Below are positions 7,178 through 45,762 of a stretch of 64,000 bases of DNA, in pieces. The notes under the pieces are model-generated. The model ran no database searches, was not told the origin of the DNA, and saw only the letters and a program-made list of their open reading frames with translations. How positions within the stretch are numbered: the stretch's first letter is position 1; the number at the start of each line of letters is the position of its first letter. The position numbers and the translations under genes were made by a program. The DNA comes from Flavihumibacter soli (GTDB taxonomy: Bacteria; Bacteroidota; Bacteroidia; Sphingobacteriales; Sphingobacteriaceae): positions 806,001 to 870,000 of the forward strand of contig NZ_JAAFZB010000096.1 of assembly GCF_010692725.1 (NCBI RefSeq). Direction: 5' to 3'.

Positions 7178-7293
7178 GAGGTCAGGTAGTAATAATGTTT
7201 CAAAGATAGGGGCTGAAGATGCAGTGTATCTGCGCTGTGGAGAAATAGCCGGTTGTTAATATGTTGTAAAAGACAATCAGAAAAGTGATACGT

Positions 7294-9651
7294 TTATGAC
7301 AGCAAGGCCGTGATCTTCTGATACAAAAGCTTCTGATCGACGGGTTTAGTCATAAAATCATCGGCACCCAGCTCCATGATGCGCGTACGGGTAGTTTCCA
7401 TGACGTCGGCTGTCAGGACTATGATCGGGACTGAATCATTCTCCAGACCGGCTTTCCCTTTACGTATAGCCTCAGTAGCTTCATACCCATCCATAACCGG
7501 CATCTGCAGGTCCATCAGCACAAGGTCGATCGGGTTGTTCTTAAGTGCCTCCAGGCTTGCGGCACCGTTGTCTGAAAAGCTTACCGTGGTGTTCAGCCAT
7601 TTCTTCATCATCATCTTCATCACCATCTGGTTCATGGGATTATCTTCGACAACCAGTACATGCTTACCCATCAGGTCGTAAGAATCGGAAGGAAATTTAT
7701 TAATGAATTTGACTTCGGCAGGAGCCAGTTCATAGGGTATTGCCAGCGAGCAGCTTGTTCCCTCATGCTGCCGGCTGATCAACTCTATCTTACCGCCGTG
7801 CAAAGTAACGAGCGCGTTAACGACACAAAGCCCGATCCCGAAGCCGCCGTACTTCCGTTTATTGCTGATATCCACCTGCGAAAACATCTCAAATACGGAA
7901 GAGAGTTTTTCAGGGGAGATACCAATACCGGTATCACTGATACTTACCAGGAGATCCAGTTCACCGGCACTGTTTTGTTGACCCTCAACCTTAATTGAAA
8001 CGGAGCCTGAGGAAGTAAATTTTATAGCATTGCTCAGGATATTATTGACCATTTGCTGAAGGCGTGCCGGGTCACCTAATACCTGTAATGCAGGCGGCAG
8101 GTTCGTGGAATAATTAAATTCAAGACCTTTGATAAGGGCCTGACCCTGGTGGTTTAACTTTACCTTTTCAAGAATCTCAAAAGGTGAGAACTTCACCTTC
8201 TCGAGGCGGATCTCGCCTTTCTCGATCATGGAAAAGTCCATAATGTCATTCACCGAAGAGATCAGGTTAAAGGCTGCGTTGTTTATTTCTGCGCAATTCG
8301 CCAGTATTCCAGAGTTCGCCGTTTCGCGCTCCATCGCACTGGTCAAACCAAGGATAGCATTCAGCGGCGTGCGTAACTCATGACTCATATTAGAAAGAAA
8401 GTATGACTTCACTTCATTCATTTCCTCCGACTTCTTCAGGGCCAGGGCCTGCAGCTCCTCCTTTTTACTCTTTAGCAGGCGGATGCGGTTAGCCATTGAC
8501 AGGGATAGCATGATTACCTCCAGTCCGATCGCGGGCTTGGTGATATTGTCAATTGTAAAAGCGGTGATGAGGCCGAAATTCATCATGATGGCCAGCGTGA
8601 AACAGATGAACAGGATCGCAATACCAGTCGTATAGAACAAGTCGACCCCTTGTTTCCTGATGATCAGGGTAATGATGGCTATCGCAATGAGCAGCATGCC
8701 GATTAAGGTCAACACATTCACCGCCGGGTAGGAATAGGGAAGAAATGCCGGAACAAAAACTATAAGCGCCAGTGTGACACCGAGCAGGATGTACAGGAAC
8801 TTAAAGGCTATATAGATCTTCCTGTCATTCTTTTTAACATTCAGTACCAGTTCGCTGTACTTCCCAAAGAAGTAAGCACCCCCGATGGCAGAAATAATGA
8901 CCGCATGTAAGTTGACCCAGGAGTTACTCCGGTCTATATATTGGTGGAAGAATCCGTCGAGGGCAAACTGGCAGAGGGCGACAAAGGCGACATACAGCGT
9001 ATAAAAAAGAAAGATCCGCTCATTGATCGCGAAATAGAAGAATAGGTAAGTAATGGTAATGATCAGCAGGATGCCGTAAAAGACCCCCATCATGAGCTGG
9101 TCATGATAAACGATCTCCAGGAAACGTTCCTGGCTGATCAGGGTGAGAGGCAGGTTATTTTTCTCACCGTCATTTCTTACTTCCATGACAGCCTGCTTTT
9201 TTTCACCCGGATGTAACTGCAGTTTAAAAACCGTCTTTCTGAAATCAACAATTCTTTTATCAAAAGACAGATTGTCCCCGCTCTCCTGCACTTTGTATTT
9301 ATTGTCCTGGCCCAGCAAATACAAACGCACATTGTCGGTAACCGGCTCTGCCGTTTCGAGGTAATAGTAAACCGGCAGATCAGATGCATTATGAAGGTCA
9401 AACTTCAGCCAGTAGGTGTGATCTGTAAATCCGAGGTTGCCGGTCAGACCTTTTACCGGCCGGAATAATAAATCGCTTTGATTACCCACAACATCTTTAA
9501 TACTCAGCTCCCGGTTCCCGGCATCCGCAATCGATGAATATTTGATGATGGAAGTTTGTTCGGGAAGCTTATTAGCCCTGAAGACAAACTGGCCATTCAC
9601 CTTTAAAATGCTTAGTAACAGGAAGAGTATGAGGAGAGAAGGATGTTTCAA
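7294..9651 (-). CDS. hybrid sensor histidine kinase, 7TMR-DISM type with receiver domain
   Basis: A 785-residue membrane sensor. A signal peptide (residues 1-20) leads into a 7TMR-DISM extracellular sugar-binding-like domain (about 30-170), then seven membrane helices (about 185-395), a dimerisation/phosphoacceptor domain with the H-box SNMSHELRTPLNAI at about 420, an HATPase domain (about 520-645, DTGIGI and GGFGIGLCV boxes) and a C-terminal receiver (660-785) with DLQMPVMDG carrying the phosphoacceptor Asp at about 711. Family knowledge suggests sensing of carbohydrates or other periplasmic ligands. No output regulator is adjacent, so signalling must run through an orphan response regulator or phosphotransfer protein. 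Confidence 0.93.
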   Translation of the reverse strand: MKHPSLLILFLLLSILKVNGQFVFRANKLPEQTSIIKYSSIADAGNRELSIKDVVGNQSDLLFRPVKGLTGNLGFTDHTYWLKFDLHNASDLPVYYYLETAEPVTDNVRLYLLGQDNKYKVQESGDNLSFDKRIVDFRKTVFKLQLHPGEKKQAVMEVRNDGEKNNLPLTLISQERFLEIVYHDQLMMGVFYGILLIITITYLFFYFAINERIFLFYTLYVAFVALCQFALDGFFHQYIDRSNSWVNLHAVIISAIGGAYFFGKYSELVLNVKKNDRKIYIAFKFLYILLGVTLALIVFVPAFLPYSYPAVNVLTLIGMLLIAIAIITLIIRKQGVDLFYTTGIAILFICFTLAIMMNFGLITAFTIDNITKPAIGLEVIMLSLSMANRIRLLKSKKEELQALALKKSEEMNEVKSYFLSNMSHELRTPLNAILGLTSAMERETANSGILANCAEINNAAFNLISSVNDIMDFSMIEKGEIRLEKVKFSPFEILEKVKLNHQGQALIKGLEFNYSTNLPPALQVLGDPARLQQMVNNILSNAIKFTSSGSVSIKVEGQQNSAGELDLLVSISDTGIGISPEKLSSVFEMFSQVDISNKRKYGGFGIGLCVVNALVTLHGGKIELISRQHEGTSCSLAIPYELAPAEVKFINKFPSDSYDLMGKHVLVVEDNPMNQMVMKMMMKKWLNTTVSFSDNGAASLEALKNNPIDLVLMDLQMPVMDGYEATEAIRKGKAGLENDSVPIIVLTADVMETTRTRIMELGADDFMTKPVDQKLLYQKITALLS

Positions 9652-9768
9652 TTACGGATAGATAAATGTAGATCAAGCAGGGAACACTGCGGCCGCAAAG
9701 CTACGACAGAAAGTATGACCGCAAAACTTAATCGCAGGAATGTAGTCGAATGCGAAAGTCTTCCCAGT

Positions 9769-12768
9769 TTATCTGCTTTTTTCAATTTCAGCGAAAATTC
9801 CGTCTACTTCAGAGACGACCGCCAGCTGCTTAAATTTTCCCGCCTCCTCGCGAAATCCGTTCAGAACGGAAGCAGCCAGGCTGATCTCATCCATACGGCT
9901 CTCCTGTTTTTCTTTATCCAGGGAGCCCAGGAACCGAAGCTCCGCGGCCAGGAACTGAACCGTGCTGGCTGCTATTCTGTTTGCCTCAGCAGGTTCATTC
10001 AGCCGGTAAAGGGTAACTGCCGCCCTATACTTTTCCACGCTGTCGCGGATAGTATAGTTTCGCATTGGAAGATTTTCTACAGCTCTGCTGATGACATCTT
10101 TTGCCTCAGCTGTTCTGCCTTCAGCACCCAGATCAGCAGCGAGCGTATTCAGGAGGTTCCAGGTCTGCCTGGCTACCCGTCGCGATTCAGGATCTAGGTA
10201 AGCGGCTTTGTTGAAAGAATCCAGTAGAAACTTGTTTTTTAGATTGGAATAAAACACCCGTGAATGAGTGACTTCGGACTTATCCCGCTTATCCTCAGCG
10301 TCACGTCTGAGTGGTAAAAGCCGGTAAGTGAAGCCCTCCAGGTGAAGATAACGGTCAAGGCCGAAATAGCTGTCGTCGGAGACCCCAAACGTAAAATATA
10401 TAGGCCTTTTCCAGTTATTATGTGCAAGAATATCCATCAAAGCCAGATCGCTTCGGGTCATGTAATTCCGGGGGTAAGTCCATTGCATGCTGTCTTCAGC
10501 GTTAACTATCTCCTCTTTACTTAGCGTACCGGTTTTAAGCAGCTCTTCCCTGTTGACGCTCATCCGAAACTTTTTGGAAGGGAGAAAATTAACCTTTGAA
10601 CCGTCATTCATCGGCACCTTGTCCGATTCATGATCAGAAACCAGCAACTCAAACAGATCCTTAAGCTCTACAGAATCAGACAGTCCATAATCCATATAAT
10701 AGATCACATCCCGGACACCTGCCTTGTATTTTTCCGCAGACATCGTTACCGGTAAGGGATCAGAATTATTAATTTTCTTTTTCAGTGCGGTAACGTAATC
10801 CGGGTCGAAAAGCAGCTGTAAATTGACGATCCTGACATCCGGCCGGATACCTTCCACTTCCTGCGCATACCATAAGGGATAAGTATCGTTATCAGCATTT
10901 GTGAAAAGTATTGCATTCGGCGCACATGATTCAAGGTAGTTAACAGCCATCTCCCGTGCGACCCGGTTTTCAGAACGGTCATGATCATTCCAGCCCTCCC
11001 TGATCATTAAAAACGGCGCCGCTGCAAAACATATAAGTATTGCCAGTATTGATGCGGTTCTTGCTTTGGCTATTCCCGACAGCCAATGCTGCACGGCGAG
11101 CACCCCCAATCCCAGCCAGATGGCGAAGACATAGAATGATCCGACATAGGCATAGTCGCGTTCCCTGACCTGTAGCGGATCCTGGTTAAGATAGAGTACT
11201 ATTCCCAGGCCGGTAAAAAAGAAGAAAACAGCCAAAACCAGAGCGTCCTTGCTACGTCGCCGGAAATGAAAGATCAGGCCGCAGATCCCAAGGACAAACG
11301 GCAATCCGTAAAAACGATTATAACCCTCGTTTTGCTGCCCCAGGGGCGAAACTTCTGCATGCGCACCCAGGCGCAGCTGATCGAGCGGTTTCACACCACT
11401 TATCCAGTTTCCATTAACATTACTTCCCTGGCCCTGTTCATCGTCCTGCCGGCCGGCGAAGTTCCACATCAGGTAACGCATATACATGAAACCCAGCTGG
11501 TAAGAACTGAAGAACTGCAGGTTGTCCTTAAAATCAGGCCGGCTACTTTCATCAAGCCCCAGCCAGTTACGGTAGAAGGCTACATCACTGGCTTCGTCGC
11601 TGTAGATCCGTGGAAATAGGGTATTCCGGTCATACTGATATTTCCGGTCAGGGCCTGCTTCCGCATATTTGCCCTTATCCTCCCGGTAGGTCATTTTCCC
11701 TTGAGCCACCCCCGTTGTCTCTGAGTCGAAATACTGGCCATAAAGCAAGGGCGCCTGGCTATATTGACCGCGGGAAACATACCGCAGCAGGGAGTAAGCA
11801 TTGTCAGGGTTGCTGATATTGATAGAGGTCTTAGCTCCCGCCCTGATCAGGATCATCGCATAGCTGCTGTAACCCAGGATAATGAAGGAAACACAAACCA
11901 GTGCCAGATTTAAAACCGGTTTTTTACGCCGGTGCGAGTACCTGATTCCGAAACCAATAGCTGCAACGAGCACCAGGCCGAAAAACAAGACGCCGCTTCC
12001 GAAGGACATATTCAGACTATTAACAAAGAGCAGGTCAGTCTTGAAAGCAAAGAGGAGGAGGTATTGCACTATTCCCACCTGTACAAAGCCAAGGATCAGG
12101 CAGCCGGCTAACAGGGCAAGAAATGCTCCTTTTTTGTTTGCCGACTTATTTTGCTTAAAATACCAGAGCAGTACGATCCCGGGAATGGCAAGTAAACTTA
12201 GCAGGTGAATGCCTATAGAAAGTCCGATCATGTATGCGATGAAAACAAGCCATCTGTTTGCGGCAGGCCCGGAAGAAGCCTCCCATTTCAGCGCCCCCCA
12301 GAAAACGATAGCTGTACATAAAGATGAAAAGGAGTAAACCTCTGCTTCAACTGCCGAGAACCAGAAAGAATCTGTGAAGGCATAAGCCAAGGCTCCGGTG
12401 AGCCCGGCGCCCATGACGGTAACCAACTTGCGGGTTGAGTCTTTCTCTGCAGCTACCAGTTTGCGGCCAAGGGCGGTGATCGTCCAGAACAAAAACATGA
12501 CGGTCAGGGCACTGGCCAGGGCGGAAAGGGAGTTCACCCAAAAGGCAACTTCCCCAGAATCCCCAGCCAGGAATGAAAACAGTCTTCCCAGCATCATAAA
12601 TAAGGGTGCCCCGGGTTGATGCCCTACCTGAATTCCATAAGCTGTTGCTATAAATTCTCCGCAATCCCAGAAGCTGCCTGATGGCTGAAGAGTCAACATA
12701 TAGACCGTGAAAGCCAAAGCAAAGCTTAGCCAGCCAAAAAGAATATTGATCCGGTTGTACTTTTCCAT
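9769..12768 (-). CDS. DUF2723 membrane protein (GT-C / PMT-like glycosyltransferase)
   Basis: An integral membrane protein of about 999 residues. The N-terminal half has about a dozen hydrophobic helices and the DUF2723 hallmark 'WDCGEFIATAYGIQVGHQPGAP'-like stretch (near residues 35-57); the C-terminal half is soluble. DUF2723 proteins have the fold of protein O-mannosyltransferases and are near-universal in Bacteroidota; a role in envelope or protein glycosylation is inferred. The reading frame extends to 12828, but the start MEKYNRINILFG at 12768 fits the family better than the longer version. It is transcribed alone, away from the kinase gene. Confidence 0.85.
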   Translation of the reverse strand: MEKYNRINILFGWLSFALAFTVYMLTLQPSGSFWDCGEFIATAYGIQVGHQPGAPLFMMLGRLFSFLAGDSGEVAFWVNSLSALASALTVMFLFWTITALGRKLVAAEKDSTRKLVTVMGAGLTGALAYAFTDSFWFSAVEAEVYSFSSLCTAIVFWGALKWEASSGPAANRWLVFIAYMIGLSIGIHLLSLLAIPGIVLLWYFKQNKSANKKGAFLALLAGCLILGFVQVGIVQYLLLFAFKTDLLFVNSLNMSFGSGVLFFGLVLVAAIGFGIRYSHRRKKPVLNLALVCVSFIILGYSSYAMILIRAGAKTSINISNPDNAYSLLRYVSRGQYSQAPLLYGQYFDSETTGVAQGKMTYREDKGKYAEAGPDRKYQYDRNTLFPRIYSDEASDVAFYRNWLGLDESSRPDFKDNLQFFSSYQLGFMYMRYLMWNFAGRQDDEQGQGSNVNGNWISGVKPLDQLRLGAHAEVSPLGQQNEGYNRFYGLPFVLGICGLIFHFRRRSKDALVLAVFFFFTGLGIVLYLNQDPLQVRERDYAYVGSFYVFAIWLGLGVLAVQHWLSGIAKARTASILAILICFAAAPFLMIREGWNDHDRSENRVAREMAVNYLESCAPNAILFTNADNDTYPLWYAQEVEGIRPDVRIVNLQLLFDPDYVTALKKKINNSDPLPVTMSAEKYKAGVRDVIYYMDYGLSDSVELKDLFELLVSDHESDKVPMNDGSKVNFLPSKKFRMSVNREELLKTGTLSKEEIVNAEDSMQWTYPRNYMTRSDLALMDILAHNNWKRPIYFTFGVSDDSYFGLDRYLHLEGFTYRLLPLRRDAEDKRDKSEVTHSRVFYSNLKNKFLLDSFNKAAYLDPESRRVARQTWNLLNTLAADLGAEGRTAEAKDVISRAVENLPMRNYTIRDSVEKYRAAVTLYRLNEPAEANRIAASTVQFLAAELRFLGSLDKEKQESRMDEISLAASVLNGFREEAGKFKQLAVVSEVDGIFAEIEKSR

Positions 12769-25789: not shown

Positions 25790-28700
25790 ATGAAGTGTTT
25801 TCATAGAACCTGCTTGTCCATTTTATTCACCTGTTCCCTTGCTTTCTCCTTCGCCCAGTCACCTGAGGTGCAGTTCAATCTCTTTACCGGCATTGACGGG
25901 GTGAACGTAGGTAAGGTTAACTGTATCACCCAGGATGCCAACGGCTATATGTGGTTTTCCGACCAGACGCGGCGATGCATCACCCGTTTCGACGGCTATC
26001 ACATGACCAGCTACCGCAATGAACCCGACAACCCGCATTCGCTGGGCGGCACCTACCCCGAAGTGATCTTTGCCGATACCTCGGGCGTATTATGGATCGG
26101 CTTCTATGGCACGGGACTCGACAAATTCGATCCGAAGACCGGGCGATTCACGCATTACCGCCATAATGAGAATGATCCCTCCAGCATCCGCAGCGATACC
26201 GTGGCGGCCATCCTGCGCGACAGCAAGGGCAAGCTATGGGTGGGAAGTTACGGCGGCCTGGAACTGCTGGACGAGCAGACCGGGAAGTTCACCCACTACC
26301 CGCATAAGCCCGACGATCCGAAAAGCTTAAGCAGCAATACGATCCGTTCACTCTACGAAGACCGGCAGGGAACCCTTTGGGTCGGCACGGGCATGTTCCT
26401 CGAGCTGACCAAACCCCTGGACGGCGGACTCAACCGCTTCGAACGGCAGACAGGTACCTTTACCCGATTCCTGAACGACCCGAAGGATCCGCAGAGCCTG
26501 ATCAACAATAAGGTCCGCGCGATCTACGAAGACAGCCGCGGAACGTTCTGGGTGGGAACTGCCGGCGACGGGCTGCATACCATGGACCGTGCCAGCGGCA
26601 AGTTCACCCGACATACTTATAATCATGACAATCCCGGGCAGCTGAGCCGTCCGCCGCTATCGGGCAGTGTCGATCATATCACCTTCATCGTCGAAGACAG
26701 CCTGAAGACCATCTGGATAGGCACTATGGCCGGCGGACTGAACCGCTATGATCCCGCAGCGAAAAAGATCTACCATTATGGCAAAGGCCGCAGCCCGCTC
26801 CAGGACTTTGGAGATAATACCTGCTGGTGGGCCTATACTTCCCGCGACGGCGTTATCTGGATGAGCACGCAGCAGAATAACCTTTACCGGATCAACCCTT
26901 CGCACATCACCATCCCGCATACCAATACGGGCGTCGCCATCCTTTCCTTTGCCGAGGAACCCCCGACGGGAGGCCTGTGGCTGGGTACTGACAACGGCTT
27001 ATTTAAGCTGGACAAGGATCGCAGGATAACGAAGCGCTACAGCCATGATATGGGCGACACCCGTACCATGAGCAACAATATCATCAACGTGATCTACCGC
27101 GACCGGCAGGGGCGCATGTGGCTTGGCACGGAGAACGGCCTGAACCTCTTCGACCCGCATAAGGAGACCTTTGAACGTTTTCAGCATCTGCCGTCAGACC
27201 CGCAGAGCATCTTTTCGGGCTCCGTGAATGTCATTTACGAAAGCCGGTCGGGCCAGTTCTGGATCGGCGGTCTCGGCGGCCTGGCGCTGATGAACCGCGA
27301 GACCGGCAGGTTCAACCACTATAGGCGAAACCCGAAGCTGCCTTCCAACCTTGTTAATGATATGGTCCTTGGCCTGGCAGAAGACAAAGCGGGCGACCTC
27401 TGGATCGCCCGGATCAGCGGAGCCGGCCTGAACCGCATGAATCCCCGGACCGGCCGAAGCATCCATTATCTCCCCGGTCATTCGGTGAAAAGCATCTATA
27501 TTGATTCAGCTGGCACAGTCTGGGCCGGCACCGAGCTCGGCCTCTACCGGAAGACCCCGAACGCAAAAGACTTCGCGGTATTCCGCGACGCCAATTCGGA
27601 AGTAGGCTCGGCCTATTTCTCCAGCATCATTGAAGACGATCAGCAGAATCTCTGGGCGAGCTCCATGTCCGGCATCTTCCGGATCAACGCCAAGCGAGAC
27701 CATACCATCCTCTACGGCCGGGCCTACGGTGTCGTACCCGGCTTCATCTTCGGCGATAAGACCAGCAAGGGCGAGCTGCTCTTCGGCGATGCCATCGGTT
27801 ACCATGCCTTTTACCCGGAGAAGCTGATCGCAGATCCGAAGCCGATGCGCATCCTGCTGACCGCCTTCAAGATCGCCGACGAACTGGTGCCGCCCTCGAA
27901 CCGCAAGGTGATGAAGCGGCCCATCGAGCAAACGGAGAACATCCGCCTGGAATGGGACGAGAATAACTTTTCCTTCGAGTTCGCCGCCATCGACTACCGC
28001 GACCCGCAGGTGAACCAGCACCAGTATATGCTGGAAGGCTACGACAAGATCTGGCGCAAGGCGGGATCAGACAAGTCGGCCTATTATTTCAATGTACCGC
28101 CGGGCGTTTACACCTTCCGGGTGAAAGCCTCGGGCAGCGACGGTGTCTGGGCCGAGAAGGCCGTAAAAGTGAAGATCACCCCGCCGTGGTGGCAAACCTG
28201 GTGGGCTTACCTCCTGTATTTTGCACTGATCCTGCTGGGCCTGTACTATTTCGACCGCGTGCAAAGACACCGCCTGCTGAAGGATGAGCGCGAAAAAGCC
28301 CGCATCCGGGAACTGAACCAGGCGCGCGAAGTGAAGAAGGCCTACCACCAGCTGAAGGCTACGCAGGCACAGCTGATCCACTCCGAGAAAATGGCATCCC
28401 TCGGAGAACTGACCGCCGGCATCGCCCACGAGATCCGCAACCCGCTGAACTTCGTCAATAACTTCTCGGAACTGGGCCGCGAACTGCTGGATGAAATGAC
28501 CACCGAACTGGAGAACGGCAACAGCAAGGACGCCCTGGGACTGGTGCCCGACATCCGGGAGAGCTTCGACAAGATCCACCACCACGGCAGCCGCGCCGAT
28601 GCCATCGTCAATAGCATGCTGCTGCACAGTCGCAATAACCCCGGCGTAAAGGAACCAACGGACCTGAACTACCTGGCGGAAGAATACCTGATCCTGACCT

Positions 28701-29164
28701 TCCACGGGCTGAAGGCCAAGGACAAGACCTTCAATGCTACTTATAAAACCGACTTCGACGAATCCATCGGCAAGGTGGAGATCATCCCCCAGGATGTAGG
28801 CCGGGTACTGTTGAATCTCTTAAACAACGCCTTTTACGCCGTCTCAGGAAATAAGAAGAAGCTTGCCGCCGCTGGCTTACCCGAAGACAATGATTATGTT
28901 CCGACAGTCACCCTGATAACCCGGCTCCTCGGCGAAGGAAAAAACAGGCGGGTGGTCATAACGGTACGAGACAACGGACCCGGTATCCCGAAAGGGGTAC
29001 TGGAAAAGATCTTCCAGCCCTTCTTCACCACCAAACCCACCGGCGAAGGTACCGGCCTCGGCCTCTCCCTTAGCTACGACATTATCAAAGCCCACGGCGG
29101 GGAATTAAGCGTCAAATCGGAAGAAGGGGAAGGATCGGAATTTACTGTGACTTTGCCGGTTTAA
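25790..29164 (+). CDS. two-component-propeller sensor histidine kinase
   Basis: A 1,124-residue membrane sensor. A signal peptide (1-22) is followed by some 12 or more Reg_prop blades forming two beta-propellers (about 30-690; recurring 'G.LWVGT..GL' and 'F.HY...DPKSL'), a Y_Y_Y domain (about 710-795), one membrane helix (about 803-822), a coiled coil, a kinase domain with H-box [15 protein letters not shown] at about 877 and an HATPase domain to the end ([21 protein letters not shown]). It lacks the receiver and AraC domains of hybrid two-component regulators. Codon use is clearly more GC-rich than in the genes around it. Degraded copies of its 3' end occur near 35.2 and 35.8 kb. Confidence 0.93.
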
Positions 29165-30156: not shown

Positions 30157-30717
30157 ATGGCAAAAGCATCAGAAATAAAAACCGGTAACATCCTGAGATA
30201 CAATGGAGACCTGGTAGTAGTAGAGGAAATCACGCACCGTACGCCCGGAAAAGGCGGGGCATTCTATATTGGGAAATTCCGCAATATAAAAAGCAGTAAA
30301 ACCGTAGAAGCCCGTTTAGGTACGGATGAGCAGGTGGAGATCTGCCGCGTGGAGACAAATGATTACCAGTATCTTTATGAAGACGGCGATTATTATGTCG
30401 TGATGGATAATAACAGTTTTGAGCAGCACAACATTCCTAAAACACTGTTCGGCGATGCGGCCCGTTTCCTGGTTGAAGGAATGAATGTGATCATTTCCAT
30501 GGAGAGTGAAGAACCAATTATGGCGCAGGCTCCTTCCTTCGTCGAGCTGGAAGTAATATATTCTGAACCCGCAGTTAAAGGCGATACCTCTACCAACGCA
30601 TTAAAAAGCGCTACGGTTGGCAATAACATCGAGATCAAAGTACCGATGTTTGTCAACCAGGGAGATAAAGTAAAAGTAGATACCCGCTCAGGGACTTATG
30701 TTGAAAGAGTAAAATAG
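30157..30717 (+). CDS. efp: translation elongation factor P
   Basis: A 186-residue EF-P with all three domains. The domain I tip loop reads THRTPGKGGAF with Lys32 at the position that is usually modified, domain II contains YLYEDGD and 'MDNNSFEQ', and domain III ends with the signature 'GD.VKVDTRSGTYVERVK'. It binds ribosomes stalled at polyproline. The gene is transcribed alone and is followed by a strong terminator (30732-30766). Two decayed copies of its 3' end lie downstream (31275 and 35405), both followed by a terminator unlike the one here. Confidence 0.97.
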   Translation: MAKASEIKTGNILRYNGDLVVVEEITHRTPGKGGAFYIGKFRNIKSSKTVEARLGTDEQVEICRVETNDYQYLYEDGDYYVVMDNNSFEQHNIPKTLFGDAARFLVEGMNVIISMESEEPIMAQAPSFVELEVIYSEPAVKGDTSTNALKSATVGNNIEIKVPMFVNQGDKVKVDTRSGTYVERVK

Positions 30718-31168: not shown

Positions 31169-31274
31169 AAGTCAATATTAATTTGATTTTATTCTCTAAT
31201 GTAGTCAGTTTTTTCGGCTCATAAAAAGAATCTACTGCATCGGACAACACACCTTTCATCTGCACGACGTCTAT

Positions 31275-31386
31275 AAAGCGCTACGGTCGGCAATAACATC
31301 GAGATCAGAGTACCAATGTTTGTCAACCGGGGCGATAAAGTAAATTAGATACCCGCTCAGGAACTTATGTTGAAAGAGTGAAATAA
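31275..31386 (+). pseudogene. displaced 3' end of efp (fragment 1)
   Basis: About 112 bases match the last codons of efp (from AAAGCGCTACGG to the stop TAA) with several substitutions and a 4-base loss near 'GTAAATTAG' that breaks the frame. The stop context is GTGAAATAAGCTGG and a different terminator follows, showing that this end came from a different efp allele from the intact gene. Confidence 0.88.
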
Positions 31387-32080: not shown

Positions 32081-35000
32081 TTATTCATCCTCCCGCCAGA
32101 TAGCAGCCAGTTTTTGTTTTCGAAGTTTATGCGGCCTATTAAAATTGTAGGAGCTGGTGTCATATCTTACGTAACAACAATTACACTGAAATAAATCCTT
32201 TCCAACCACGGACATCTCTTTCTGACATTTATAACAATAATACTCACCTCGTTCGAGATGTCCTGTATTATTAGCCACTGCATGAACAAGTTCTGGATGG
32301 ATATATCCTCCAGTTAATGAAAGGTTTTCTAGCCTCCTTTTAAACATTTCATGTGAGCAGCAAGTACCGCAATCATCGCAAATGATTAGTCCGTTAGAAC
32401 AACGCTGTGAAATTCTGCTATCAATTATTCCGCTGCACCGGCCATTTAGACAATGTGTTAGATAAACCTCTTTCTCGAATTCACCACATTTGTCATTGTT
32501 ACAAGAGAAACGTACAACCGTGTAGGCGGCAAAATGGGAAGTATCAGTAGGAAATAATATCTGGCCGCAATCGTTACAATACAATCTTTCTAGCAAACGT
32601 CCAAATCGATTGATCAGCGAAACAAATTTGTAGTACTGGCCTTTTGGAACTAGGTCCTGCATTTTGTTTCTTTCATCAGTATCAAAACCCAAGATGTTGC
32701 AGAAATCCAGAAGAGTGTAACGTTCCCATTGTTCGGGATTATGAGATGTCTCACAATTTTCGAAGCAAGGCCCACCTCGACACCACCAAAAGTCTCGATT
32801 AAGTGTATCGTGCTTTTTATTTGCTAGCCGCCCTTCGCAGTACTTGATTCCAGGTGGTTTTTCACTTCGCTTATAGTTAACAAGGTGAACATTATTAATA
32901 TATTTATTTCCTGGCAAATCGATAAAAAACCTCTCCTTTTTCGCAAAATCATATACCTCTTCTTCGTATTTTTTTGGTACGCCCCAGTGTAACAACTCTG
33001 AATTCCACTTACGACCAGGAAGTTCTTTAACCTTTTCCTTTAAACGTTTAAAATGAGGATTAACGACAAAATAGTTATGTCCATAATGGTTCGTTTCATC
33101 TTCACCTACCTCAAAGGAAATTGCGAAATAGAATGAGTTACCAAAATGCCTTTTTGTTATACTTCCTTTAGTTTTCCAATTAAATTCATTAACCATTCGG
33201 CCAGAACATTCCTCAAAAAAATTGCCGAGTGAAAATTTTCTTTTATTATTCCCATACAGATTTTCCAGAACACATGCTAATAATTCGGATTCAGCTAAGA
33301 AACGATGTTCTTGTTTGAATTTAACCAACCCTTTGATGATAATGTCAATTGACAGATCCCATTTTAATTCGTTAGACCATTCAGTATCGATTTTGTATAA
33401 ATCTACATCTACCCGTTTAATCTCATTAAGCTTTTCTACTGTTAGGCTAAAATCACCCTGTGCACACAAGTAAAATAGCCTTTTAATTATTTTGATCTGG
33501 TCGGATGAATCGAAATATATAAATTTATTTTTAAGGAACTCGAAATCAAAAGTTTCTTGTCTACCAAAAAACCAAAGGATCAGGGAATAAAAAGGGTTAT
33601 TTAGTTTGTCCAACTGAGGTAGAACATTTTCAACATCTTTTGATCGGTGTAACAGCTTAATTAACTTATACTGCCTTCTAAACGTTTCCCGGCTTGTAAT
33701 AATTTGTTGTTCCTTTAAACACTCTAAGATAATCTTTTCTTGTTCTTGGCTGGTGAATAAGTCCATAATTGCCCAACGGTCTAATCTAACTGTTGCCTGC
33801 TCATATGACATGTCATGTATTAACTTTACTACAGCTGCCTTTGGAAAAATATAAACTTCTCCAGATTCCCATAGATTGAGATAAGCTTCGCTATCAAGTA
33901 GCTCGAACAATTCACCATTAAACAACTCGAAATCCCTTGGCTCCAAATAATCATTTGCTAATTTGCATAACCAACTCAGATTAATTGAGTGATCATTTTT
34001 AGCTTTTACCAAAAGCAACGCTACGATATTTTTAGAGTTGTTTACTCTTTTTAACAACTCAATGAATTGCCTGTTATCAAGAATTAAGACGTTTTTAGTG
34101 ATTATACTTTCATCGATATGGAAATATAATCCTTCACAATAAAGAATTAGTTTTTCCTGGTCGTCACTGGAAAATTCCACATACTGGTTGAAGGAAGTTA
34201 ATAAATCAAATCCGGTTTTGTCAATCCAATACTCTTGATTAAATATTTGTGTTGATAATGCAAAATTATTTAAAGAATTTTTGTTCATTACAAATCTTTC
34301 AAGAAGTGAATACCCTGAAAGCAAGCCGTATTGTTTACTATAGAGCTTCAAGAGTTCGAGTTGACCTATTAGATCAAGTTTTGAAAGGAAGTTGATTCGT
34401 CTTTGCATAGTAACAGTACTATCGCAAAGATCTAACAGGTTAGGAATTTCGCCTAATCCGTTCTCCCATAAAAGCACTTTATCATCGCAACGTTTAATAA
34501 TTGCTTTTTTTATCTTCTCATCAACATGCTGTTGAACAGAAGTCAAATAATTGATGCCGTAAATGCTTTTTGTTCCATTATATTTCATAAGGTCTGATTC
34601 AGATCTAATAACTGGAATCGCCTTATAAAGCCCCAAAAGGTCTCGATTAAATTTCTTTATAAAAAATGTTTCAAATTTCTGCATAAACGCCTTATCGGCT
34701 AGATCTAAATGTTGCAGAAAAGGAACCAAATCTTCAATATCGTCGATTTGAAAATATTCAACCATCTCACTAGTAAACTTTATTTTATTAGTTTGTTTTG
34801 GTAAAAGTTCCTTGATAGTTCGAAGTGATATTGACCTGATATTGTATCTGCTGACACTTCGCCGTTCATCAACAATCACGTCGGCTTTTCTATCAATAGA
34901 TAGGCATAGGGATAAGTGTGAAAGGGTTAGCCGGTAAACTTGTATCTGTTTTCTTGGTTGAACGCAGGTTTGAATTGCGAAGGCATCCCCAGATGCAATC

Positions 35001-35116
35001 GAAATACATTCTTCAACAAAATCAGTGTCTCGAATTTTAAAATCAGGTTGACTAGCCGACCCAATTAACCCAAAACCCTTTTTTAAATCATACCATTTTA
35101 CAATCCCTATAACCAT
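32081..35116 (-). CDS. giant cold-shock-domain / zinc-ribbon protein of unknown function
   Basis: About 1,011 residues. The N-terminus is a cold-shock-like OB fold (GIVKWYDLKKGFGLI, the RNP1 position, residues 4-18). Residues about 80-640 are helix-rich with no recognised domain. About 655-730 contains 'LPGRKWNSELLHWGVPKKY', resembling the HARP/annealing-type 'LPG.KWN...W.VP' module. From about 745 to the end there are many paired cysteines (YCNDCG, SCNNDKC, HCLNGRC, ICDDCGTCC, YCYKC, QCNCC), enough for at least three zinc ribbons. The frame opens at 35146, but MVIGIVKWYD at 35116 fits cold-shock starts. Nucleic-acid binding is likely; no nuclease or ATPase motif is seen. AT-rich, between displaced efp ends. 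Confidence 0.8.
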   Translation of the reverse strand: MVIGIVKWYDLKKGFGLIGSASQPDFKIRDTDFVEECISIASGDAFAIQTCVQPRKQIQVYRLTLSHLSLCLSIDRKADVIVDERRSVSRYNIRSISLRTIKELLPKQTNKIKFTSEMVEYFQIDDIEDLVPFLQHLDLADKAFMQKFETFFIKKFNRDLLGLYKAIPVIRSESDLMKYNGTKSIYGINYLTSVQQHVDEKIKKAIIKRCDDKVLLWENGLGEIPNLLDLCDSTVTMQRRINFLSKLDLIGQLELLKLYSKQYGLLSGYSLLERFVMNKNSLNNFALSTQIFNQEYWIDKTGFDLLTSFNQYVEFSSDDQEKLILYCEGLYFHIDESIITKNVLILDNRQFIELLKRVNNSKNIVALLLVKAKNDHSINLSWLCKLANDYLEPRDFELFNGELFELLDSEAYLNLWESGEVYIFPKAAVVKLIHDMSYEQATVRLDRWAIMDLFTSQEQEKIILECLKEQQIITSRETFRRQYKLIKLLHRSKDVENVLPQLDKLNNPFYSLILWFFGRQETFDFEFLKNKFIYFDSSDQIKIIKRLFYLCAQGDFSLTVEKLNEIKRVDVDLYKIDTEWSNELKWDLSIDIIIKGLVKFKQEHRFLAESELLACVLENLYGNNKRKFSLGNFFEECSGRMVNEFNWKTKGSITKRHFGNSFYFAISFEVGEDETNHYGHNYFVVNPHFKRLKEKVKELPGRKWNSELLHWGVPKKYEEEVYDFAKKERFFIDLPGNKYINNVHLVNYKRSEKPPGIKYCEGRLANKKHDTLNRDFWWCRGGPCFENCETSHNPEQWERYTLLDFCNILGFDTDERNKMQDLVPKGQYYKFVSLINRFGRLLERLYCNDCGQILFPTDTSHFAAYTVVRFSCNNDKCGEFEKEVYLTHCLNGRCSGIIDSRISQRCSNGLIICDDCGTCCSHEMFKRRLENLSLTGGYIHPELVHAVANNTGHLERGEYYCYKCQKEMSVVGKDLFQCNCCYVRYDTSSYNFNRPHKLRKQKLAAIWREDE

Positions 35117-35171: not shown

Positions 35172-35237
35172 GGCGGCGAGTTAACCGCCACATCCGACGA
35201 TGCAGAAGGATCGGAGTTTACGGCTAGTTTGCCGGTG
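35172..35237 (+). pseudogene. remnant 3' end of a propeller-type histidine kinase (copy 1)
   Basis: 22 codons translating to GGELTATSDDAEGSEF..LPV, aligning with the last residues of the kinase ending at 29164 ([19 protein letters not shown]). Nothing of the rest of the gene is present. Confidence 0.75.
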
Positions 35238-35404
35238 TGGCGTGTCAAAGACTATTTTACAAGAGAGCATCACAGCACTTGATATTCCTGTTACAAAGTA
35301 TAAATCCAGTGCATTTGACAGCCAAAGAACAGTGGCTTCATCTACAGGTATGACGACTGTTATAAATGTGGTAAAATTTATCCGAGCTGTAGCAGATCAG
35401 TTAT

Positions 35405-35693
35405 GAGCAGTTCAACATCCCAAAAACACTGTTCGGCGATGCGGCCCGTTTCCTGGTTGAAGGAATGAATGTGATCATTTCCATGGAGAGTGAAGAACCG
35501 ATCATGGCTCCTTCCTTTGTCGAGCTGGAAGTAACTTATTCTGAACCCGCCGTTAAAGGCGATACCTCTACCAACGCATTAAAAAGCGCTACGGTCGGCA
35601 ATAACATCGAGATCAAAGTACCGGTTAGTCCACCAGGGCGATAAAGTAAAAGTAGATACCCGCTCTGGAACTTATGTTGAACGGGTGAAATAA
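35405..35693 (+). pseudogene. displaced 3' half of efp (fragment 2)
   Basis: About 289 bases matching efp from the codons of EQ(H)NIPKT to the stop, with a 6-base deletion near CATGGCTCC and an internal frameshift near 35625. It ends GTGAAATAAGCTGG, like fragment 1, and is followed by half of the same terminator. The order kinase-end, spacer, efp-end repeats that of the intact locus. Confidence 0.9.
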
Positions 35694-35810: not shown

Positions 35811-35885
35811 TAGGGAAAGATCTTCCAGGCACATGCCGGCAACTTAACCGTCAAATCGGAAGATGGAGATAATCGGAATTTACGG
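35811..35885 (+). pseudogene. remnant 3' end of a propeller-type histidine kinase (copy 2)
   Basis: A short block joins the kinase word AAAGATCTTCCAG directly to the terminal segment coding AHAGNLTVKSEDGD, then frameshifts. About 60 bases of the functional gene are missing between the two words. Second decayed kinase end in the locus. Confidence 0.7.
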
Positions 35886-35939
35886 TGTATCTGCAGATAT
35901 CATAATAAGCCAGTTGTAGAATATACAACTGGCTTTCAT

Positions 35940-39898: not shown

Positions 39899-41761
39899 CT
39901 AATTGATTTGAACTGTTTTAATAAAATAATCCTCGGTCTCTTCATCCACTAAATACACATAACACCCTTTCATCCCCCTGGTCATCAAAGTACGATATGT
40001 GTTCTTAATGATTCTATCTAAGCGTCCTGCTGTCTCTGTCGGTGCTCTTTTCATCAGGGATTTGTAGCCTCTCACAGAAGAATCGTTCTTAGATCGCTTG
40101 GTTGCATCTGTAATAATTTGACCGTCCCTAACGACAAGATCCTCTCCGACAATAACGCCAATGTAATCTACTTCCAGTCCCTGGCATGTATGAATACAGC
40201 CTACTTCATTAACCGAGTTCGGACTCATGATCCAAAGGCTACCGTCATCGGTTAAATTCCATTGCATGGCAAAATCATCATCCGGAAATACAATATCTTT
40301 TGCTAAAGGATTTTTCTGGCTGACCCAGTCCCAGCAATATCCTGCCACAAGGCGCGCCTTGTTATTTTCCTTGTTCTTCTCAAAGATCAGATCGCGCAAT
40401 TCTGAAGGTGAACTGCAAACGCGGAAGTCATAGTCTTTTGTATCCAGCGTAGGGTTAGCCGTTTCTTTTATCTGCAGGCTATGATCGAGCCATGCCAGGT
40501 ATCCGTCCGAACCGTTACACCGAAATTGTGAAGTGAGATCCAGTTCATGAACTTTTGCACCGGAGGCGACCGCCCAATTAATTAATTCCGACTTTTCGCC
40601 GATATCGTTAAGAGTTACGCGTTGATCCTCATCAATAAAGAATACAGAGAATTTTGAAGCCTCAATGATCTCCTTTATCTGGTTCTCACCCAGGTTCTTG
40701 AACATGCCCGACTTTTCATTGAGCCGGTGTGCTTCATCAACTACCAGTGCATCAAAGGTATTTGCATCTGCCCCAATATATGCCCCGGAACCTTTGAACA
40801 GGTTAGAAATAACCGTTTTCTTCAGCGTCCCTGTAAGTTTGCTCTCGTAGACGGCACGCGGTGCGGCGTTCTTGGTTACATACTGTGTATTCAGGCCCTT
40901 TTTATTAAGCTCGACTAAAAGATTTACGGCAACAACAGATTTTCCCGTGCCGGGACCGCCTTCAACGATCAGCACATTTTTATTGGTTTCAGATGACTGC
41001 TGTGCAAGTGCTTTTGCAGTCTCAAATACAACCTTTTGATCATCGATCAGGATGAATTCATCATTACCCTTGAGCATGGAGGCCATGCTGTCCGCAAGAC
41101 TTTTAGACGGCTTGATCTTCCCGCATTCAATACGGTACATGATCCGGCTCCTGTCTCCAAATTTTACAAAGCGCTTAATGAATTCACGAAGCTTGATGGC
41201 ATCCGGCTTAAGGAATATCGGAGCCTTCTCTATATACTCTGAATAGAATTTGTTGTCAATAATACCATCCGCGGTGTAGTTATGCAGGTATGCGCATGGG
41301 CTGAGCTGTATATTCTCGTCATAAACCGCCTGGTTAAAACCATTCAGCAGCGCTGCATAGGACCATGCCTGGTATGAAGGATGGGCAGTATCCTTATAGC
41401 TCCCCCTGAATGGCGTCCGGATAATGCTGTCACGGTTGGTTAGCTCGGCTTCCGACCATTGCTTTAATTCGATCAGCACCGCATGATCAGCATTGCTTGA
41501 ATCCTGCCCTGTAATAATAAAATCCAGGCGCTTGGAAGTTTGAGGGATATGATATTCTATCGCCACATTGCAGTCGCCGGGAATTTCAGGATCCTGCAAT
41601 ACGGTACCCATGTACATCAGGGAGTTTTTCCAGGATAATAACTCGCTTGAGCCTACCCGTTTTCCGGCGTAGGTTTCGAAGTCCTCGCGAACAATATTTT
41701 CAATGTCGTTGGAAAGAATATCATTCAGAAACTGGGTCTTGGTAGAATGGTATACGATCAT
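39899..41761 (-). CDS. DUF2075 Schlafen-type helicase with N-terminal nuclease-like domain
   Basis: A 620-residue protein. Residues about 60-110 (RLDFIITG...VLIELKQW) have the spacing of a PD-(D/E)XK nuclease core. The DUF2075 helicase domain follows, with Walker A EGGPGTGKS at about 263, Walker B VVDEAHRL at about 340, FIDEDQRV at about 375 and the late motif 'TCQGLEVDYIGVIVGEDL' at about 520. DUF2075 proteins belong to the Schlafen-group SF1 helicases found in defence islands. The gene starts 3 bases after the MazG-like gene and is surely in one operon with it. Confidence 0.88.
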   Translation of the reverse strand: MIVYHSTKTQFLNDILSNDIENIVREDFETYAGKRVGSSELLSWKNSLMYMGTVLQDPEIPGDCNVAIEYHIPQTSKRLDFIITGQDSSNADHAVLIELKQWSEAELTNRDSIIRTPFRGSYKDTAHPSYQAWSYAALLNGFNQAVYDENIQLSPCAYLHNYTADGIIDNKFYSEYIEKAPIFLKPDAIKLREFIKRFVKFGDRSRIMYRIECGKIKPSKSLADSMASMLKGNDEFILIDDQKVVFETAKALAQQSSETNKNVLIVEGGPGTGKSVVAVNLLVELNKKGLNTQYVTKNAAPRAVYESKLTGTLKKTVISNLFKGSGAYIGADANTFDALVVDEAHRLNEKSGMFKNLGENQIKEIIEASKFSVFFIDEDQRVTLNDIGEKSELINWAVASGAKVHELDLTSQFRCNGSDGYLAWLDHSLQIKETANPTLDTKDYDFRVCSSPSELRDLIFEKNKENNKARLVAGYCWDWVSQKNPLAKDIVFPDDDFAMQWNLTDDGSLWIMSPNSVNEVGCIHTCQGLEVDYIGVIVGEDLVVRDGQIITDATKRSKNDSSVRGYKSLMKRAPTETAGRLDRIIKNTYRTLMTRGMKGCYVYLVDEETEDYFIKTVQIN

Positions 41762-41764
41762 CCG

Positions 41765-42094
41765 CTAAAGTTGATCGTATTTCTTAGCAGTTCCCTTCGC
41801 TTTATCCACCGGGTATTTCGCCCGATTCTTTTCTATCTTATCCAGTACGATCTTATTAATATCAAAGCCGTATTTCTCTGCAACCAGTAACGCATAACCA
41901 ATCACGTCAGCCAGCTCATCCTTGATCTTTTCAGGGTCGGCTTCTTCGGCCTTCTTCCAGAGAAACAATTCATTTAATTCCGAAGCTTCGATGGAGAGTG
42001 CCAAAGCAAGGTCCTTGGCATTGTGAAACTGCTGCCAGTCGCGTTCCTCCCTGAACTTAATTAGTTCTTGTATAAGCTTGTCCCAATCCTGCAT
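41765..42094 (-). CDS. MazG-like nucleotide pyrophosphohydrolase
   Basis: A 109-residue all-helical enzyme of the MazG/dCTPase-like superfamily. The metal-binding acidic motif appears as EASELNE (about 32-38), followed by the second motif DELADVIGYAL (about 59-69). It would hydrolyse NTPs or dNTPs to monophosphates. Paired with a DUF2075 helicase in one operon, it may lower nucleotide pools during infection; this is inference, not shown by the sequence. Confidence 0.88.
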   Translation of the reverse strand: MQDWDKLIQELIKFREERDWQQFHNAKDLALALSIEASELNELFLWKKAEEADPEKIKDELADVIGYALLVAEKYGFDINKIVLDKIEKNRAKYPVDKAKGTAKKYDQL

Positions 42095-43051: not shown

Positions 43052-45100
43052 TCAATTCCAATCTATAGGTTTCTTCATAGTAAACTTATCAAGTTCTTCA
43101 AGAGTGCCATTAAATTGATTTACATCAACTCTTTGACCATTGGATGTTGAAATTCCGTTGACAACTTCAGTGGTACTAAATTGCCAAAAACTCCAGTTTT
43201 TTACTCCGGCAGGCAAAATTGGGGATTTTATTCTATTCTTCCCGTAAACACCAATCCACAATGGATAAGTACCATATTCCGATTCATTGGCAAGGGCTTT
43301 TACCAAATTGTAGCGGGCGTAAATAATGGGTTTTACTCTATATTCTTCTTCGAATAAATCGAGTATTATTTTAACATTTCTTAGCATCTGAATAAAAGAT
43401 GAGGATTGAATATTTGCCGAATGAGATAGGGCATCTAAATTAAGAATCGGCGGAAGATCTCCAGGTTGGAGTTTAACTGTTTTGATGAAAAGATCCGCTT
43501 GTTTTGATGGATCTGTCTTAACTGAGAAATAATGATATGCCCCCCTTACAAAATTGAATTTTCTTGCATTCGGCCAGTTATTAACGAAGCTTATATCAAC
43601 TCGTCCATTGCCATCAGTCGCTTTCATTAAAATAAAGTCTACTCCTGACCCCTTTACTTTCAACCAACTCTCGATTTTGTTTAATCTAGAGATATCAATC
43701 CCAACTGGCTTACCTTGATTGAATATTTCCTTTAACCGCGGCGATAGTTGTGATGAATCAATTTCTGCTGATTCTGAAGTAACCGAATCTATTTGCTCCG
43801 CGAGCGTTGAATCGGTATTAAGGTTTGACTTGGATGAGTCGCTTAGGTTTTTAAGTACCACATTATCAGATTGTTGATTAATTCTCAAATAAAAAATGAA
43901 GGCAACTAAAGGCAAAATGGCTGCCATGCCATAAGTGAGTAACTTTATTTTTCTTTCCTTCTTTGCTATTTCCTGATTTTTAGCTTCATATTTAGATTCA
44001 AGGGAGTTCAATCTTTTCACCTGAGTTTCCAACAGATCGTCTTTGTATTTCATCGAACCGGTTATCGTGGTGTGATCGATATCTTCATTTTCACCTGAAT
44101 AATGCATTACAGAAGATGAGTTCTTTGCCAAATTTACTAGTGTAGTTCTGTTATCTACCAAATATTTGGCCTGATTTAATTGTACGGCAATTAATGCGGC
44201 TATTGCTTCATAGGCATAGCCCATTCTAGCAGGATCAATTAAACCCTCATCTATAACCGGAAGACGTTCCCCAAAACTGTAAAATGGAGTATATGGTATT
44301 TTAGTAAATAATAAAAAGGTTTTTCGGTTAACATCTTTAGGTAGCCAGACGTCATATATTTCAGCCAAACCCTTTTCAAATTTTTCCATCCATTCATTAA
44401 TTTTCTCCGTCTCCGAATTATCAATCCTGGTGGGTATGGGTAAGGTCAATAAATTAATTCTATCAAATGGCAACTTCATCTGAGCCTTTGCGGCTTTTGC
44501 CGCAACCCTTCTTACACCTTCAAAACCTTGATCAGTAGGGGTAAATAATAACGCTAAAATATCTGGCAATTGAATAGTACACACACCACCTATATCCGTT
44601 ACCCCGGTGCGGCTGTCTATAAAAATAAAATCAAATTCCTTTTTCCAATCGTTCCTCAAATCCTCAATAATTTGGCCCCCGTTACTATTGGTATAAAAAT
44701 TATTGAAATCAAACGCTCTCACCTTGTCATAATAATTTTCGTCGAAATTGCCGGAAGTTATCAGGTTAAGGGATTCTATATTAAGATTAGATTTGAAATC
44801 ATCATATTTAATGGGCAATAAACAATCTCTCCAAGAAACTTTTTTTGTAGTCGAATCTGTTGCGCTGGTGAGTATATCAATCAAACCTGGTTTTGCCCTT
44901 GCGCTATCGATAGATATATAATCTTTAAAAAAATTCTCCAGTCCCGGTGCTTCTAAATCCCAATCTATTATTAGAGTTTTATATCCCCACTGAGCTAATA
45001 CTACTGAAACATTAGCCAAGGCAAAGCTTCGGCCGACTCCCCCTTTATAAGAATAGAAAGTTACAATCGTACCAGCTTTGTCTATTATTTTTTTATTCAT
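43052..45100 (-). CDS. KGGVGR-motif ParA-like ATPase fused through a membrane helix to a degenerate GH25 domain
   Basis: A 682-residue fusion. Residues 1-320 are a MinD/ParA-like ATPase with variant Walker A KGGVGRS (19-25), DWDLEAPG (46-53) and FIDSRTG (about 159-165). A linker and coiled coil lead to one membrane helix (about 387-406) and then a GH25 lysozyme-like barrel (about 464-680; GIDIS with Asp469, 'GVDFILMKATDG', 'RGAYHYFS', 'VDVNQFNG'). The usual D-x-E catalytic pair is N554-L-D556, so lysozyme activity is doubtful. It overlaps the TIR gene by four bases. TIR next to KGGVGR ATPases is an association I know from bacterial conflict systems; the GH25 fusion I do not know. Confidence 0.9.
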   Translation of the reverse strand: MNKKIIDKAGTIVTFYSYKGGVGRSFALANVSVVLAQWGYKTLIIDWDLEAPGLENFFKDYISIDSARAKPGLIDILTSATDSTTKKVSWRDCLLPIKYDDFKSNLNIESLNLITSGNFDENYYDKVRAFDFNNFYTNSNGGQIIEDLRNDWKKEFDFIFIDSRTGVTDIGGVCTIQLPDILALLFTPTDQGFEGVRRVAAKAAKAQMKLPFDRINLLTLPIPTRIDNSETEKINEWMEKFEKGLAEIYDVWLPKDVNRKTFLLFTKIPYTPFYSFGERLPVIDEGLIDPARMGYAYEAIAALIAVQLNQAKYLVDNRTTLVNLAKNSSSVMHYSGENEDIDHTTITGSMKYKDDLLETQVKRLNSLESKYEAKNQEIAKKERKIKLLTYGMAAILPLVAFIFYLRINQQSDNVVLKNLSDSSKSNLNTDSTLAEQIDSVTSESAEIDSSQLSPRLKEIFNQGKPVGIDISRLNKIESWLKVKGSGVDFILMKATDGNGRVDISFVNNWPNARKFNFVRGAYHYFSVKTDPSKQADLFIKTVKLQPGDLPPILNLDALSHSANIQSSSFIQMLRNVKIILDLFEEEYRVKPIIYARYNLVKALANESEYGTYPLWIGVYGKNRIKSPILPAGVKNWSFWQFSTTEVVNGISTSNGQRVDVNQFNGTLEELDKFTMKKPIDWN

Positions 45101-45762
45101 AGAGTAGGTAGTGGCATGGGATTTTGGCTTGCACTATAGCTAAACGGCGGAATAAAATATGAGTCGGATCTCCAATCAGGGTCCCATGAGGGAGCTTGTG
45201 AAACAACAGGGTAAATACTTTTTCTTACCCATCTTAGTACAATTGTTCTAAGTTCATCATAAGCTAAACTTTCCTTAAAGCCACTGCTAACGGAATTATA
45301 CTTTAAGTTTAACCGCAAAGGAGAAATATTCAGAATTAAATTTCGCATTCCAACATCTCTAAAAACGGGACTTTGTTCTTCTATGGTAGTTTCTTCTTCA
45401 TCAACAAAGACAATTGGGAAAATTAGTCCCGTATGATTCGGGTTGTTAGCTCTGATATTTAGTACCGTTTCCCTTTTTAACATAGCAGCAAATTCAGAAG
45501 GGCACCAAATTGAATTAACAAAGTATGGAAGCGTAATAATACATACCATGCATTTTGAAAAAGCAACACCATCCTTTAAGACATCAGGCAAGTAAGCGCC
45601 TGACAGGGTTTGGCTCACATCATGAAATATGTCGTCTCGATTAATGGTTCCTTTAACATTTTCAAGGGATTCCCTGAGGATAGGTAGAAATATCTGATCC
45701 ACCCACCTTTTTCTATCACCTCCCCATTTATAACTTACAAAAATATCATGACGGTAACTCAT
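45097..45762 (-). CDS. TIR-domain protein
   Basis: A 221-residue protein with an N-terminal TIR domain: 'HDIFVSYKWGG' (residues 5-15), 'TLSGAYLPDVLKDGVAFSKCMVCIITLPYF' strand-helix pattern, and 'WCPSEF' with Glu90 at the position of the NADase glutamate in SARM1-like TIRs. The C-terminal 80 residues are not recognised. It is the first gene of a three-gene operon; its TGA overlaps the ATG of the KGGVGR ATPase. Likely NAD-consuming or NAD-derived signal-making effector, inferred from family. Confidence 0.92.
   Translation of the reverse strand: MSYRHDIFVSYKWGGDRKRWVDQIFLPILRESLENVKGTINRDDIFHDVSQTLSGAYLPDVLKDGVAFSKCMVCIITLPYFVNSIWCPSEFAAMLKRETVLNIRANNPNHTGLIFPIVFVDEEETTIEEQSPVFRDVGMRNLILNISPLRLNLKYNSVSSGFKESLAYDELRTIVLRWVRKSIYPVVSQAPSWDPDWRSDSYFIPPFSYSASQNPMPLPTL

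Follow-up and report, generated by a model that had tools for sequence, protein, structure and literature searches.

The gene and its site at efp

The window, that is, the whole stretch of 64,000 nucleotides analysed here, carries a gene that runs from an ATG at 35116 to a stop ending at 32081 (1,011 codons plus stop). An in-frame TTG lies 10 codons upstream of the ATG. The original prediction was of a protein of about 1,000 residues with the strand unstated; the open reading frame is real, lies on the minus strand and encodes 1,011 aa. The gene is present in single copy in the 4.4-Mb genome, and its product is referred to as P0001. The features of the gene and of the efp copies around it are as follows.

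30157..30717, plus strand: intact efp, the reference copy
31272..31385, plus strand: decayed efp 3' end (115 bp, 91%)
32081..35116, minus strand: whole gene, 1,011 codons plus stop
34919..35116, minus strand: cold-shock domain (CSD)/OB-fold, residues 1-66; RNP1-like KGFGLI kept, RNP2-like motif degenerate in P0001
33167..34849, minus strand: long helical middle, residues ~90-650, with possible ~100-aa repeats
32912..33154, minus strand: HARP-like module, residues ~655-735 (best-matched stretch 677-727), from profile and pairwise matches
32354..32842, minus strand: universal Cys-rich core, residues 759-921, from the alignment of 12 relatives
32162..32263, minus strand: extra C-terminal zinc ribbon, residues 952-985, missing in some relatives
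35398..35692, plus strand: second decayed efp 3' end, matching 303 bp of efp (91%)

Both efp remnants share about 27 bases past the stop, AGCTGGAATkTATAAAAAAGCGGGCAT, that do not follow the intact efp. With these remnants and their common 3' flank on either side, the gene occupies a segment of about 4.2 kb bounded by efp ends of one type, and a larger island extends beyond this segment. Fragments resembling the 3' end of the histidine-kinase gene at 25790-29164 were found at 35173-35237 and 35845-35888, which makes the junction a graveyard. The GC content is 32-35% at 33.0-35.0 kb; it is 43-44% near efp and reaches 55-59% within the kinase gene upstream. Thus the predicted AT-rich insert and the displaced efp ends, with decayed 3' copies of about 91% on both sides, were recovered. 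The pattern of the two remnants suggests serial insertion or allele exchange at efp. When the site was compared with that of three genus relatives in search of an empty site, none of the flanking genes of the window was found beside efp.

Domain organization and the cysteine-rich core

P0001 alone gave nothing above threshold in Pfam, PADLOC or PDB. Its N-terminus matches the Pfam CSD weakly as a single sequence (E=0.12), and the predicted OB-fold start is carried by the relatives. Five members match the Pfam CSD, four at 2e-5 to 9e-5, just below the Pfam cut-off, and one at 0.006, and an 11-row family profile matches solved CspB at E=1.3e-8. The nearest cold-shock proteins are CspB/CspD/CspE. 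In P0001 the RNP2 motif reads FKIRD, compared to FFLH/FFHK in the relatives L016/L011. By reading of the sequence, two CSD-like stretches open the proteins of L018 and L032.

The long helical middle, also part of the original prediction, was recovered as predicted helices of low confidence. It varies in length among the relatives and may be built of internal repeats of about 100 aa; in P0001 the repeat starts are possibly near residues 213, 322, 412 and 512, for which the evidence is weak. In a held-out test, three of four proteins had one or two units that outscored shuffles (6.5-12.9 bits versus 2.5-3.7 for the best shuffle), and no unit did so in L032. The L032 protein (6553-10479) contains at residues 521-657 two nearly alike adjacent helical units of about 95 aa (LYARGL.DD.PSSWVK.NLDDL), which on their similarity are a recent internal duplication.

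The module with LPG.KWN..W.VP, described earlier as annealing-like, matches the N-terminus of an SNF2-type ATPase that is encoded in a phage-like region of the genome G080 and has the DDMGLGKT and DESH motifs; residues 677-727 are 41% identical to it over 51 aa (pairwise E=2e-7). At the equivalent place Pfam HARP matches L018 at 3e-5, just below the cut-off, and L016 at 0.006, and it is unrecognisable in about half of the relatives. No SNF2 ATPase domain came up in the Pfam scan. Weak Pfam matches of P0001 to CheR and DarP (E 0.02-0.09) were dismissed as spurious; following the CheR-like stretch brought up a chemotaxis locus (L021).

Conservation of the C-terminal region was determined from an alignment of 12 divergent sequences, in P0001 numbering. 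The core follows the motif CEGR...WWCxxxxC...NR...CxxC...CxNxxC...HCxNxxCxxIIDxR...C...ICxxCGxCC. Twelve Cys are kept in all 12 sequences (C760, C779, C784, C847, C850, C872, C877, C889, C906, C913, C916, C919), as are N836, D899 and R901, while C894, C920, H888, E761, W778, R837 and N874 are kept in 11. The 14 Cys kept in at least 11 of the 12 exceed the three or more C-terminal cysteine-pair ribbons proposed previously, and could form at least three zinc sites. The extra C-terminal ribbon is present in most relatives. As the CSD is unrecognisable in L009, L010 and L012, the first two of which are core-half proteins of about 500 aa, and HARP in about half of the relatives, only the zinc core is essential to the family. 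By this alignment, the family is defined by a new Cys-rich, putatively zinc-binding core, the sole part common to all members.

Neither the helical middle nor the core is covered by any Pfam, NCBIfam, PADLOC, PHROGs or PDB family, and for these parts the predicted absence of a known family holds. In the full text of open-licence papers on cold-shock proteins together with BREX, restriction-modification (RM), defence islands, embedded genes, YecA or SprT, no description of the family was found. Judged from these searches, the core is a domain without match in the family databases searched; accessory nucleic-acid-binding defence proteins are, as a kind, already known. AlphaFold2 with three-sequence input gave models too poor for interpretation, both for the full protein (pLDDT 41.3, pTM 0.30) and for the zinc core (pLDDT 46.8, pTM 0.41), and Foldseek with the low-confidence core model gave no match at E<=0.001.

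Distribution and genomic neighbourhoods

Relatives are patchy, occurring in 1-2% of the sampled genomes. In a phylum-wide sample, 8 of 396 genomes gave any match: besides the window, the true relatives are L002/L016, L003/L017, L004/L018, L005/L019 and L006/L020, and the other matches are HARP-only (G080) or spurious and CheR-type (G224). Four of 401 genomes matched in the order sample, the genome of the window alone among 395 in the class sample, and the window plus a HARP-only match among 201 in the family sample. Within the genus the gene is present in 1 of 20 genomes and absent from the other 19, which does not agree with a conserved core-genome family of housekeeping function. A search of genome contigs added L009 (a Flavobacteriales MAG) and L010 (Larkinella), a plasmid search added Prevotella and 131 Klebsiella-type records, and a further family search added L032. 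Core identity is 62% between the window protein and the relative in G185, a genome of another family in the phylum, and in G768, from the window's own family, a stop-riddled remnant of a relative's C-terminal ribbon lies at about 9640-9800 of L024. The gene thus moves horizontally and gets lost. No match was obtained by tblastn in 50,697 phage records, nor with a DNA signature of the core in 2.9 million viral contigs; this signature finds 9 of the 12 known members and no unrelated locus among those fetched.

In a raw count of loci, 10 of 12 adjoin defence genes, and 7 of these 10 lie beside systems called strongly by curated models. In at least three loci the gene is inside or touching a defence operon. 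At L020 it lies within a BREX cluster that is on one strand throughout, in the order PglX (4e-257), an unknown gene, PDC-M36A-like, AlbA-type, the family gene, PglZ (5e-255) and BrxL (E=0), with gaps of about 30 bp flanking the family gene. On a Klebsiella plasmid (L011) and in E. coli the order is hsdM-hsdS-yecA(UPF0149+SEC-C)-family gene-hsdR-SprT/M48-DUF262, and a longer reading of the gene overlaps yecA. The yecA (SEC-C) and SprT/M48 genes within this type I RM operon (L033, L036, L050-L059, L011) are themselves unexplained. In Prevotella (L012) the gene follows hsdM-hsdS-hsdR with 1 bp between it and hsdR. It comes after Wadjet JetC and JetD at L017, and at L019 after a type III REase, a TIR-like protein, Septu PtuA and a partner of HNH type (TIR and HNH assigned by reading). 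At L009 it belongs to a Hma locus with HmaB and HmaC, and L010 has Shedu SduA upstream and a type ISP enzyme downstream. The neighbours are PADLOC candidates at L016 (FRG, DUF1016 and RhuM genes), and at L018 a DUF4145 gene similar to PD-T7-4 (2.6e-10). At L023 and L032 no defence gene was recognised among the neighbours that were read.

The neighbours in the window are an SLFN-g3 helicase similar to Nhi/AbiO and TIR-like and ParA-GH25 genes. The Schlafen-group-3 helicase (39899-42094, minus strand; 3e-103) lies 3 bp from a gene reading as MazG-like. At 43052-45762 on the minus strand, a ParA/KGGVGR-type NTPase is fused to a GH25 lysozyme domain (3e-31), and its gene overlaps by 4 bp the upstream TIR-like gene at 45097-45762 (TIR_2 4e-5, below cut-off). 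This pair resembles a conflict system of two genes whose effector is a muramidase.

The E. coli and Klebsiella orthologues are annotated only as 'cold shock domain-containing protein'. Among complete E. coli genomes, 264 of 5,426 match, and 198 of these, about 4% of the genomes, have at least 80% of the query; all places are chromosomal. At the 12 loci read (L033, L036, L050-L059) yecA and the gene are intact without exception. The RM genes are broken at three; at one of these hsdM alone is affected, truncated next to an IS element. Gene fragments elsewhere in E. coli also adjoin IS elements. Pairwise dN/dS between E. coli/Klebsiella copies, over the part beyond yecA, is 0.16-0.21 versus 0.04-0.07 for hsdR; purifying selection thus acts on the E. 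coli copy, which evolves faster than hsdR.

These neighbourhoods make it very probable that the family is associated with defence, and so support, independently of the window, the defence role proposed from the window alone. Nothing speaks for RNA sensing, proposed along with it; both the HARP module and the accompanying systems, which target DNA (RM, BREX, Wadjet, Shedu, Hma), indicate DNA instead.

Known systems share parts of this architecture. P0001 has the N-terminal CSD in common with the cold-shock proteins CspA/CspB (PF00313) and is some 15-fold larger. That CSDs do occur in defence is seen from the effector of retron Se72 (type V) and from the CoCoNuT proteins. L018 and L020 match the Se72 effector model (NF038236, PADLOC CSD_V) over the CSD only (E=7e-4 and 0.016). 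The retron reading was rejected because its defining parts are missing: the best score is 19.5 bits (L018), under the NCBIfam cut-off of 82, the 62-position model lacks the HARP module and zinc core of the P0001 family, and no retron RT was recognised among the neighbours read. CoCoNuT type IV restriction proteins combine CSD-like OB-folds, zinc ribbons and HEAT-like helices (PMC11090510), whereas P0001 has no McrB GTPase, McrC, coiled-coil or PD-(D/E)xK part and no sequence match was obtained; this reading was rejected on the absence of the McrB GTPase and McrC nuclease from P0001 in the Pfam/PADLOC scans. SMARCAL1-type SNF2 ATPases (PF07443) have the HARP/substrate-recognition module in common with P0001, but P0001 lacks the SNF2 ATPase and none is consistently adjacent. 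BREX and type I RM operons or islands carry accessory genes with a role of their own (e.g. PMC8565348). Compared to such genes, the P0001 family recurs across BREX, RM-I, RM-III, Wadjet, Shedu, Septu and Hma, and it matches no PADLOC family.

Proposed function

The domain layout, horizontal patchiness, residence by or in defence operons and purifying selection in E. coli together argue for an accessory defence protein. We tentatively prefer a mobile accessory protein of modular build that belongs to anti-phage defence islands and would act, without enzymatic activity, as a sensor/adaptor for DNA that is single-stranded or branched. Since structure prediction failed (pLDDT 41-47), the mechanism is one that we infer. 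Binding of nucleic acid through the CSD and HARP modules is well motivated by homology. The CSD would bind single-stranded nucleic acid, and the HARP-like module would bind branched or fork DNA, such as replication, recombination or cutting by the resident restriction system exposes in phage DNA. The helical middle may serve as a scaffold, and the zinc core may dock onto host or defence machinery, or onto DNA. DNA captured in this way would be held or blocked, and restriction would become irreversible.

The main rival is a stand-alone or back-up abortive effector. Phage nucleic acid would then be sensed by the CSD/helical part, and the cell would be harmed by the zinc core, acting as an enzyme of a kind not recognised so far, such as a zinc-finger nuclease. 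We regard this reading as somewhat unlikely, although several observations speak for it. The partner systems differ at every locus and the window gene is solitary, without an operon partner, both of which count against a sensor/adaptor. In E. coli the gene is intact at all three of the sampled loci with broken RM genes, and CSD proteins are known retron effectors (PMC10568477). The core, the only universal part, carries the invariant polar N836, D899 and R901 and the near-invariant H888. The prediction that no nuclease or ATPase site is visible holds for known motifs, but the invariant residues may mean another activity. However, no known nuclease, NADase or NTPase motif was found in Pfam, NCBIfam and PADLOC scans, and the D-x-R and N may be structural within a zinc fold.

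Embedding in DNA-targeting systems, with modules that by homology recognise ssDNA and forks, would also suit a self-protection or alleviation factor that binds gaps and forks in host DNA and stops neighbouring restriction from cutting un- or hemimodified host DNA. This is improbable, as the family also accompanies the modification-free systems Wadjet, Septu and Shedu, the flanks that were read at L023 and L032 showed no recognisable restriction system, and most RM and BREX systems do without a family gene. Still less probable is a regulatory role, in which an RNA chaperone or antiterminator of the cold-shock type, equipped with zinc ribbons, would control translation of the defence operon: the likeness of the CSD to CspB/CspD/CspE and the position within operons agree with it, but regulators of this sort are quite unlike a HARP-containing protein of about 1,000 aa, the position of the gene in the operon varies, and the window copy has no operon. 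The location in hotspots (efp remnants, a tRNA/yecA island) could point to a protein of mobile elements, or of housekeeping, that is simply carried along by variable islands. The searches of phage records and viral contigs, the occurrence in a single genome of the genus and the placement inside BREX/RM operons make this the least credible explanation, and a very unlikely one.

The family recurs by or in at least seven mechanistically different defence systems. This hints at a shared step, the handling of phage DNA intermediates, the need for which figures in none of the present descriptions of those systems. It is conceivable, if doubtful, that the core represents a new fold with a new activity and that the family is a portable immune module taken up independently by many unrelated defence systems. 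If this is true, RM, BREX, Wadjet, Shedu, Septu and Hma would all be upgraded by one shared sensor or effector for the intermediates of phage replication.
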